A stretch of 21,953 bases of DNA, taken from IMG/VR virus record IMGVR_UViG_3300021959_009755, positions 1-21,953 of that record; one strand, written 5' to 3'. Positions 15,159-17,091 of the stretch are shown one piece after another. Position 1 is the first letter of the stretch. Each line of letters opens with the position of its first letter. The position numbers and the translations under genes are program-made. Source of the DNA: a virus. Under the pieces are notes generated by a model that saw nothing but the letters and a program-made list of their open reading frames with translations, searched no databases and was not told where the DNA came from.

Positions 15159-15829
15159 TTGTTTATTAACTCATATTTATCTATATTATTACGAAGTTCT
15201 TCTGCCCCTACACTAAATAATAAATCAATTATAGAAGTAGAAGGCAGTGAATCTTGTCGTTTAATGAAACATAGTTGGATTGGATTAAATATTTCTTGAG
15301 TATAAAAATCAAGACTCAACCCTCCAATAGGGTTTATGTACATATCCGCATCTAATTCATTACAGATAGTAATAATCTTTTGTTCTGCTTTTAAATGTTC
15401 TACACCAAATGATGAAGATAGATGCCATTTTGATGTTATATTAAGTATATCTGCTATAGTTTCAAAAATTAAAACACAAGCATCTGAAAATTTTTTATCT
15501 TCTAATTCTTTTATAAGTGGAAAAAGATGAACAGAGTATTCTTCAAAATGTGGGCTTTTCTGATAGTTGTGTTGAATTGACCTAATTAATTTTGTAGACC
15601 ATTGAGAACTAATATAATGTTCGTTAATTTTTTTATTTTGAGAAATCTTACGAACTGGAATAGTAAATATCTGTTCTTCACCATTAATAATAATTTTATT
15701 TCTATTCATCCAACTCTTTTTAATAAAAGTAACATCATCCATAAATACAAAATGATCTACTGCTTTCATGAGTTGTAAATACCCAAAATAAGGAAATGCA
15801 TACGGTTGCATTACTGCTACCTTAGTCAT
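15155..15829 (-). CDS. wbqC: WbqC-family protein
   Basis: The protein has 224 aa and matches the WbqC family (PF08889-type) along its length: AVMQPYAFPYFGYLQLMKAVDHFVFMDDVTFIKKSWMNRNKI is the hallmark N-terminal block, followed by FTIPVRK, KSPHFEEY and FLPLI-like segments. Members of the family are found in O-antigen and amino-sugar loci, and some are assigned to aminoacylation or condensation steps attaching an amino acid or glycine to an amino sugar, though the biochemistry is thinly documented. Its presence supports the reading that the neighbouring dehydratase, aminotransferase and acyltransferases make an N-substituted amino sugar. It overlaps both neighbours by four to eight bases. Confidence 0.88.
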   Translation of the reverse strand: MTKVAVMQPYAFPYFGYLQLMKAVDHFVFMDDVTFIKKSWMNRNKIIINGEEQIFTIPVRKISQNKKINEHYISSQWSTKLIRSIQHNYQKSPHFEEYSVHLFPLIKELEDKKFSDACVLIFETIADILNITSKWHLSSSFGVEHLKAEQKIITICNELDADMYINPIGGLSLDFYTQEIFNPIQLCFIKRQDSLPSTSIIDLLFSVGAEELRNNIDKYELINK

Positions 15830-16388
15830 TAGCGTATACTACACCTGATGTTAGTACACAATCACTCTCAAGATCTTCAAATAGAATTTCTCCTGATTCT
15901 AATAAATTAGAATTTTCTATGCATACATTTTTTGATATAGAAGAATAAGGAGAAAGTACATTATGATTTCCTATACCACAATTAACACTAATAGACGTAA
16001 AAGTACATAATAAATTAAAGTTACCTACTTGAGTATTAGCATTTACTAATGAAAACATTAAAAATAAATTACCAATTCCTATAGTAGAACTTAATGATTG
16101 GTAAGAATTAGGTGCTGACATATTAGGCCAGTGATTAATATTGAGTTCATAATAACCTAAAAAGTGGTTATAGAATTGCGTTCTCCACTTAGGGTTAGCA
16201 GTACCTAATATTAATTGTGCTTCTGGTGGATAGGTAAAAGCTTTTGCACCATCTTCTCCAATACAAAAAGCCTTACCATCTTTTAATATGATAAAGCCTC
16301 CAAAGTTTTTTATATGATTAGCCACAATTATTTGCTCAAATACTTCTTGAGCAAAACTTCCGTTTCCTAGAATATATAATTTATTCAT
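15822..16388 (-). CDS. Second NeuD-like acyltransferase, left-handed beta-helix
   Basis: The protein has 188 aa from the ATG at 16388 (preceded by GAGA at a usable distance); an in-frame ATG at 16400 would add MRNK and begin only nine bases after the tmRNA. The N-terminus LYILGNGSFAQEVFEQIIVANH matches the NeuD Rossmann segment. The C-terminal 80 residues are hexapeptide-like turns (TIGIGNLFLMFSLVNANTQVGNFNLLCTFTSISVNCGIGNHNVLSPYSSIS). Unlike the enzyme at 13829, it lacks the typical GxPAR end and the conserved catalytic His turn is degraded (SVNCGIGNHNV), so activity is less certain. It is the first gene of the sugar cluster and follows the tmRNA directly. Confidence 0.72.
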   Translation of the reverse strand: MNKLYILGNGSFAQEVFEQIIVANHIKNFGGFIILKDGKAFCIGEDGAKAFTYPPEAQLILGTANPKWRTQFYNHFLGYYELNINHWPNMSAPNSYQSLSSTIGIGNLFLMFSLVNANTQVGNFNLLCTFTSISVNCGIGNHNVLSPYSSISKNVCIENSNLLESGEILFEDLESDCVLTSGVVYAND

Positions 16389-16450
16389 TTTATTTCTCAT
16401 TATGATTAGAGGCCCGTTCTGTTTCTAGGTGGAACCCATACCCACCAGTA

Positions 16451-16495
16451 TTAAGCTGCTAGAGCATAACCTGTAGGCGCAAAATTATCGTTTGC
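16451..16495 (-). other. tmRNA tag reading frame (ANDNFAPTGYALAA)
   Basis: Inside the coding piece a frame opens with a GCA resume codon and ends at TAA after 14 codons, giving ANDNFAPTGYALAA. The ANDN start is characteristic of alphaproteobacterial tags and ALAA of tags read by ClpXP, as the charged Ala from the acceptor piece is added first. The frame has no start codon, as expected for trans-translation. A YALAA end is the same as in the E. coli tag; the middle (FAPTG) is not one I know from a particular host. Confidence 0.92.
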
Positions 16496-16581
16496 ATTTG
16501 TAGTTGTCTTACGATTAAGGTTGTTTGCACACCTGCTTCTCCACTTAACTATACACTACCTGTCGATCCTATTTCAGCCCC

Positions 16582-16656
16582 ATCAAAAACATACTGTTGC
16601 TCAAGGTTGCGATCCTACGTAGACTTATTGACGCTTTCACGTACTCAGCATGTTTG
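16582..16656 (-). other. Intervening loop removed from the tmRNA precursor
   Basis: The 75 bases join the CCA end to the GGGGCTG start of the coding piece. The two flanks can extend the acceptor stem: CAAA with TTTG, then, beyond a two-base bulge, CATGCTG with CAGTATG (seven pairs with one wobble). This is what a permuted precursor needs before nuclease processing to two pieces. The middle contains another complementary pair (TACGT / ACGTA). Confidence 0.8.
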
Positions 16657-16691
16657 TGGTGGAGCTGTCGGGTACTGCCCCCGAGTCCAGT

Positions 16692-16838
16692 TCAGCTTTC
16701 GTCTTGCTTCTTCAAAGCACTTTGTTTAGCTAGTCTTTTTAATTCTTCAAAATCAATAGTAGCAGATTTTATTAACATATGATCTTCTTCTATTGACCCT
16801 TCTATTTCGTCATCATCAGGTAAAATAACTTTCGTCAA
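16692..16838 (-). CDS. Small 48-aa acidic ORF overlapping the tmRNA acceptor piece
   Basis: The frame starts at a TTG (16838) with a strong AAAGGAG seven bases upstream and 23 bases inside the end of the WYL_2-like gene. It encodes an acidic first half (DDDEIEGSIEED) and a helical Lys-rich second half (IDFEELKRLAKQSALKKQ), 48 aa in total. An ATG at codon 21 also exists but lacks a ribosome binding site. The stop TGA lies about 35 bases upstream of the CCA end, within the expected P2 strand of the tmRNA, so the same bases would serve as codons in the primary transcript and as structure in the mature RNA. No family is recognised. The overlap and RBS make it plausible, the small size keeps it uncertain. 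Confidence 0.5.
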   Translation of the reverse strand: MTKVILPDDDEIEGSIEEDHMLIKSATIDFEELKRLAKQSALKKQDES

Positions 16839-17064
16839 TGGATAACTCCTTTGGGTCAGATTCTACAGAGTTCCAATTAAATACTCTATAATTATCTGCT
16901 TCTAAATCCCAAACCAGTTCCATACCTTCTGGATATGATTGTTCAGAACCTGCTCCTAATACTGTTGTACTAAGAAATGACTGAGGTAAATCAGAAATTT
17001 TAGCAAACACCATATTTCTTGATTCACCGTTTTTCTTTTTAAATGTTCCTTTGAACGCTCTCAT
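16816..17064 (-). CDS. WYL_2 (DUF2693)-like SH3-fold protein
   Basis: The protein has 82 aa from the ATG at 17064, which has GGAG six bases upstream; an ATG at 17076 would add METI-type residues but has no such site. The sequence follows the WYL_2/Sm-like SH3 pattern common in marine T4-like phages: GTFKKKNGESRNMVF (strand-turn-strand with NGxxR), ISDLPQSFL, then GMELVWDLEADNYRVFNWNSV, in which VWD...xFRW is the signature. Members have no established function; the fold suggests RNA or protein binding. It is the first gene behind the promoter candidate at 17092-17120, and the tmRNA follows within the same transcription unit. Confidence 0.6.
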   Translation of the reverse strand: MRAFKGTFKKKNGESRNMVFAKISDLPQSFLSTTVLGAGSEQSYPEGMELVWDLEADNYRVFNWNSVESDPKELSIDESYFT

Positions 17065-17091
17065 TGTTATCTCCATATTTATTATATATGT

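Follow-up and report, generated by a model that had tools for sequence, protein, structure and literature searches.

Two-piece tmRNAs encoded by phages are already known: the survey in the Melnitz paper covered 18,146 phage genomes and predicted 53 such structures, of which 50 came from marine or aquatic sources (PMC9004378), and a 2025 tmRNA database holds 79 bacteriophage tmRNAs (PMC11915505). The gene described here, located in a window of 21,953 bases (the whole stretch of DNA that was analysed), adds another example, and the novelty implied by an earlier note on this DNA was pre-empted by the published phage genes (PMC9004378).

Like the window gene, the ssrA gene of Melnitz (Methylophilales phage EXVC043M/044M) encodes a permuted tmRNA of the alpha-like two-piece kind; Melnitz is a marine T4-like myovirus (PMC9004378), the type of phage to which the window likely belongs, and its gene scored 113 bits with RF04321. 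This gene differs in its tag (ANDNYVPVDYALAA), its neighbours and a reported glutamine riboswitch; in the window, Rfam at gathering thresholds detected no riboswitch. Pelagibacter phage HTVC008M, isolated on SAR11, likewise has a permuted alpha-type tmRNA (KC465899 145161-145370), albeit with a short 10-aa tag, ANFNEYALAA, and a score of 90.6 bits. The same short tag was also seen in two viral contigs (L035 and L037). Permuted tmRNAs are further present in large phages of Alphaproteobacteria, namely roseophages vB_RpoS-V10 and DSS3_MAL1 and Sinorhizobium phage Phosso, although the two roseophage genes encode tags ANINNAPMEMAIAA and ANTNAAPMEMAIAA and lie among tRNA genes. The alphaproteobacterial two-piece tmRNA (RF01849) shares with the window gene its gene order, an acceptor stem with a G-U pair, the resume codon GCA and a tag of the form ANDN...LAA, whereas the window gene lies in a virus and has a tag middle, FAPTGY, that was not found in the bacteria scanned.

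Anatomy of the permuted tmRNA gene

ARAGORN and Rfam identified a complete circularly permuted tmRNA gene of the alpha type on the minus strand of the window. ARAGORN reported a tmRNA* at 16360-16749(-) with the tag ANDNFAPTGYALAA*, while the pseudoknot-free covariance models RF04321 (tmRNA_permuted; 16719-16451(-), full model 1-213) and RF01849 (alpha_tmRNA; 16754-16408(-), E=1.2e-28) scored 118.1 bits against a gathering threshold of 47 and 106.8 bits against 50, respectively; at these scores, a chance origin is excluded. The earlier note had proposed a permuted tmRNA with a CCA-ended acceptor piece first, a coding piece starting GGGGCTG, a seven-base-pair acceptor stem with a G-U pair and a tag frame, and all of these were present. 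Its worry over a low covariance score was dispelled by the high score of the alpha-type model, and its span of 16409-16722 was nearly right, except that the alpha model reaches ~30 nt further in the 5' direction. The minus strand had gone unstated. The parts of the gene are as follows.

16408..16754, minus strand: entire permuted gene of the alpha type, with the extent of the precursor as given by RF01849 (ARAGORN 16360-16749)
16657..16754, minus strand: CCA-ended acceptor piece (tRNA-like 3' part), with the mature 5' end somewhere between about 16754 and 16719
16668..16684, minus strand: T-arm UCGGG / loop GGCAGUA / CCCGA (RF04321 alignment)
16657..16667, minus strand: acceptor-stem 3' strand CAGCUCC plus encoded ACCA, the CCA end lying at 16657
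16582..16656, minus strand: intervening spacer of 75 nt, predicted to be removed (alignment of relatives, spacer lengths)
16575..16581, minus strand: acceptor-stem 5' strand GGGGCUG, start of the coding piece, with the G-U at the third pair
16451..16495, minus strand: tag frame with resume codon GCA, tag ANDNFAPTGYALAA and stop TAA (ARAGORN and coordinate reading)
16408..16450, minus strand: 3' segment with a hairpin (CUGG-UGG / CCACCUAG), identical to the distant phage tmRNA L147 at 41/45 aligned positions

Read in transcript order, a 5' leader with a hairpin is followed by the T-arm, CAGCUCC-ACCA, the spacer, GGGGCUG, P2 with the upstream coding region, the tag, UAA and a 3' hairpin, so that the CCA-ended acceptor piece precedes the spacer and the coding piece as in other permuted genes. 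The two strands of the acceptor stem re-form all seven base pairs (7/7), with a single G-U at the third, and the tag frame opens on a resume alanine codon and closes on a hydrophobic -AA followed by the stop. In the P2 helix that joins the two pieces, 12 of the 15 P2-region pairs were standard and three non-standard, as judged from the NC line of the RF04321 alignment; pairings from cofolding of the two pieces were unstable, with alternatives for P2, and were left out of this assessment.

Viral context and conservation in relatives

The window is an IMG/VR virus record with ~30% G+C, and its genes are mostly concerned with glycans and hydroxylation (a glycosyltransferase, an aspartyl/asparaginyl hydroxylase, a WbqC-like protein and a sugar epimerase), some of them with PHROG matches. 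Most of the window has a gene-by-gene counterpart in three longer contigs of viral origin, G002 (45.5 kb), G004 (36.3 kb) and G003 (63.8 kb), and in each of them the tmRNA occupies the same slot, between the orthologues of the same two flanking genes. A bacterial contig carrying the only ssrA of a host was thus ruled out by the virus record, the colinear viral relatives and the PHROG matches, which bears out the description of the region as otherwise viral; that the phage-borne copy is full-length and apparently intact is confirmed by Rfam and ARAGORN and by its retention across relatives. A promoter search returned none above chance. The neighbouring reading frames are listed below.

15822..16400, minus strand: downstream flanking gene of 192 aa, start codon 8 nt past the tmRNA 3' end, orthologue flanking the tmRNA in relatives
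16816..17076, minus strand: upstream flanking gene of 86 aa, orthologue flanking the tmRNA in relatives
16692..16838, minus strand: 48-aa ORF with a TTG start (TKVILPDDDEIEGSIEEDH...LKKQDES), its last codons overlapping the 5' part of the tmRNA acceptor piece

The 48-aa ORF is probably a real gene that shares bases with the tmRNA, since dN is lower than dS in relatives outside the tmRNA part. A different ORF terminates within the acceptor piece of L138 as well.

The three longer contigs additionally encode a phage exonuclease, an endonuclease and a Nol-like carbamoyltransferase, the named relatives of which are mostly from marine T4-like phages, and the asparaginyl-type tRNA ligase of G003 is closest to that of Prochlorococcus phage P-SSM7, at 68% identity. 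The carbamoyltransferase relatives and the P-SSM7-like ligase point to a marine T4-like phage as the likely owner of the window tmRNA. A Gp23 capsid gene was not found on the fragments of the window lineage, and clustering by shared genes produced one giant component, too coarse for a count of phage lineages. The G003 ligase is a phage class II enzyme (L280:14200-15119; PF00152, phrog_29758), and a tRNA-Asn gene follows it within a few bases; G004 additionally encodes a TctA tricarboxylate transporter (L277:9985-11508; PF01970, E=2e-80).

An alignment of six related sequences showed that the acceptor and coding pieces are almost identical, whereas the spacer that separates CCA from GGGG is replaced wholesale, with lengths from 25 to 94 nt. 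The close relatives L126, L128, L130, L131 and L138 retain the acceptor piece, the coding piece and the tag, and have a spacer that is either unrelated or almost missing. Such replacement next to near-identical mature segments fits a spacer that would be cut out and discarded. The tmRNA of G003 has the tag ANDNFAPEMRLAA and acceptor strands GGGGGCG/CGCCUCC in place of GGGGCUG/CAGCUCC; as GGGGGCG pairs with CGCCUCC, both sides of this stem have changed together.

Distribution and origin of the tag

The tag was queried with the degenerate pattern AN[DN]NFAP[TS]GYA in any codons. The pattern was found in at least 119 viral stretches or contigs in IMG/VR, as opposed to a single contig among 84,980 bacterial and archaeal species genomes, a scan that covered one genome per species and contigs of at least 3 kb and in which uncultured hosts are under-sampled. 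The single contig (C4, L141 / NHBR02000136.1), assigned to a 'Muricauda' MAG, was rejected as a bacterial carrier, since it encodes a T4-type Gp23 major capsid gene as well as a permuted tmRNA and is thus phage DNA placed there by a binning error. The two Rhizobiaceae replicons that served as bacterial controls have the tag ANDNYAEARLAA, and the label 'virus-only' as used here refers to the AN[DN]NFAP[TS]GYA tag alone. Among sequences with the strict tag, about 55 distinct ones show the complete permuted anatomy; several different acceptor stems occur among them, and the tag is kept among carriers despite synonymous codon changes. Searching the literature for the tag string yielded no paper. 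The motif at the start of the coding piece was matched by at least 120 stretches in IMG/VR. Unusual viral tags were also encountered, with AQAA in place of ALAA at the end (L026, L055 and L114) or with a length of 29 aa (L036 and L109).

The tag carriers did not form one clade: this grouping was rejected on a tmRNA tree built without the tag codons (AU p=3e-7) and on the 5' half alone (1e-7). L190, in which the acceptor was misassigned, was excluded from the 5'-half tree and the AU tests of the window clade and included in the codon, first-tree and pairwise analyses. The window tmRNA and L147 share 65% identity in the 5' half, compared with 88% across the tag and 3' end together (Fisher p=9e-5, a value that overstates the difference as L147 was chosen as the best match of ~140). 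In the 3' segment alone, their identity rises to 91%, compared with a mean of 0.61 (sd 0.07) for other sequences, while in the stretch GAGAAGCAGGUG.GCAA the 5' half of the window tmRNA most resembles L068 and L058, its lineage-mates. As the 3' end matches a distant tmRNA and the 5' half matches lineage-mates, we infer, with less confidence than for the gene itself, that the window tmRNA and another phage tmRNA exchanged the tag plus 3' end through recombination within the gene. Extended to all carriers, AN[DN]NFAP[TS]GYALAA would be a virus-only module of tag plus 3' end that is swapped between marine phage tmRNA lineages by recombination and kept by selection, phages thereby choosing their own tag and not that of the host; this broader reading is offered tentatively.

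Instead of exchange, the GYALAA-type tag shared by distant phage tmRNAs may reflect convergence or the legacy of an old viral ancestor, which is possible if somewhat doubtful. The 3' ends of some carriers are indeed dissimilar (the window against L145 or L149, for instance, at 0.30), and AU tests restricted to the window clade, where the free search missed better trees, rejected neither grouping (p 0.59, 0.97 and 0.41), vertical ones included. Against this, tag-sharing pairs are more alike in the 3' segment than other pairs at matched 5'-half identity (~0.67 vs 0.58), and L138 and L147 are near-identical there (98%) on 5' halves that are only 67% identical. What goes beyond earlier knowledge is the presence of the tag across viral contigs and in no genuine bacterial contig of the scan, together with the suggestion that tag modules move between phage tmRNAs; if they do, the tag itself would be under selection in viruses.

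Predicted role in infection

We consider it highly probable that the locus encodes a functional two-piece tmRNA which is vertically kept in a marine T4-like phage and would carry out ribosome rescue and tagging with host SmpB during infection. For the window tmRNA, the course of events from transcription, processing and charging to SmpB use, tagging and degradation is predicted from its sequence. The gene would be co-transcribed with its neighbours, host tRNA-processing enzymes would cut the precursor and remove the spacer, and the two pieces would then pair via the acceptor stem and P2 and be charged by host alanyl-tRNA synthetase, for which the G-U is the identity pair. With host SmpB, the tmRNA could free ribosomes stalled on broken mRNA; mRNA decay in infection would make such stalling common, and ordinary trans-translation with host SmpB, alanyl-tRNA synthetase and ClpXP is the most likely outcome.

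SmpB (PF01668) was detected in none of 38 virus records, several of which are fragments, and a phage SmpB of its own is not a required feature. As no SmpB was seen in the viral relatives examined, that of the host is presumably the partner, and the phage would add to the host pathway rather than take its place. The proposal of the earlier note that the phage takes over ribosome rescue or tag choice in its host is plausible within these bounds, its second part being partly supported by the essential absence of the tag from bacterial genomes.

SspB and ClpX recognise the ANDN and ALAA ends of bacterial tags. Both ends are retained in ANDNFAPTGYALAA, and products to which it is added should therefore still be read by SspB/ClpXP-type proteolysis of the host and degraded. 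One could alternatively envisage an RNA that acts mainly as a decoy or modifier, competing for host SmpB and protecting nascent phage proteins, or altering degradation targets, with an altered tag middle that would weaken or redirect proteolysis and with general rescue as a secondary function. The lack of the tag in genuine bacterial contigs is in line with such a role, as is a tmRNA of phage DS6A which has no coding frame and inhibits endogenous tmRNA in E. coli, as cited in PMC11915505. It is nonetheless unlikely, given that the resume codon, the ANDN start and the ALAA end are all kept, as ordinary tagging predicts. A passenger copy lately captured from a host by transduction or imprecise excision and free of selection in the phage, as might be suspected from the bacterial origin of alpha-type tmRNAs (RF01849) and the common use of ssrA genes as integration sites (PMC9004378, PMC11915505), is very improbable and largely refuted by the conserved slot and intact mature parts in several diverged relatives, by a tag absent from the bacterial genomes scanned and by the window ORFs, in which no integrase or attachment remnant was noticed.

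A tag that is widespread in viruses and unseen in the bacteria scanned offers a specific handle on why lytic phages carry a ribosome-rescue RNA of their own. Tagged peptides in infected cells could tell viral rescue apart from that of the host, and assays of degradation could ask if the viral tag is handled differently. On the bacterial side, the tmRNA gene of S. meliloti Ak57 lies on a record named as a plasmid (L281, 3.7 Mb, pSymB), with an SspB-family gene ~0.2 kb downstream.
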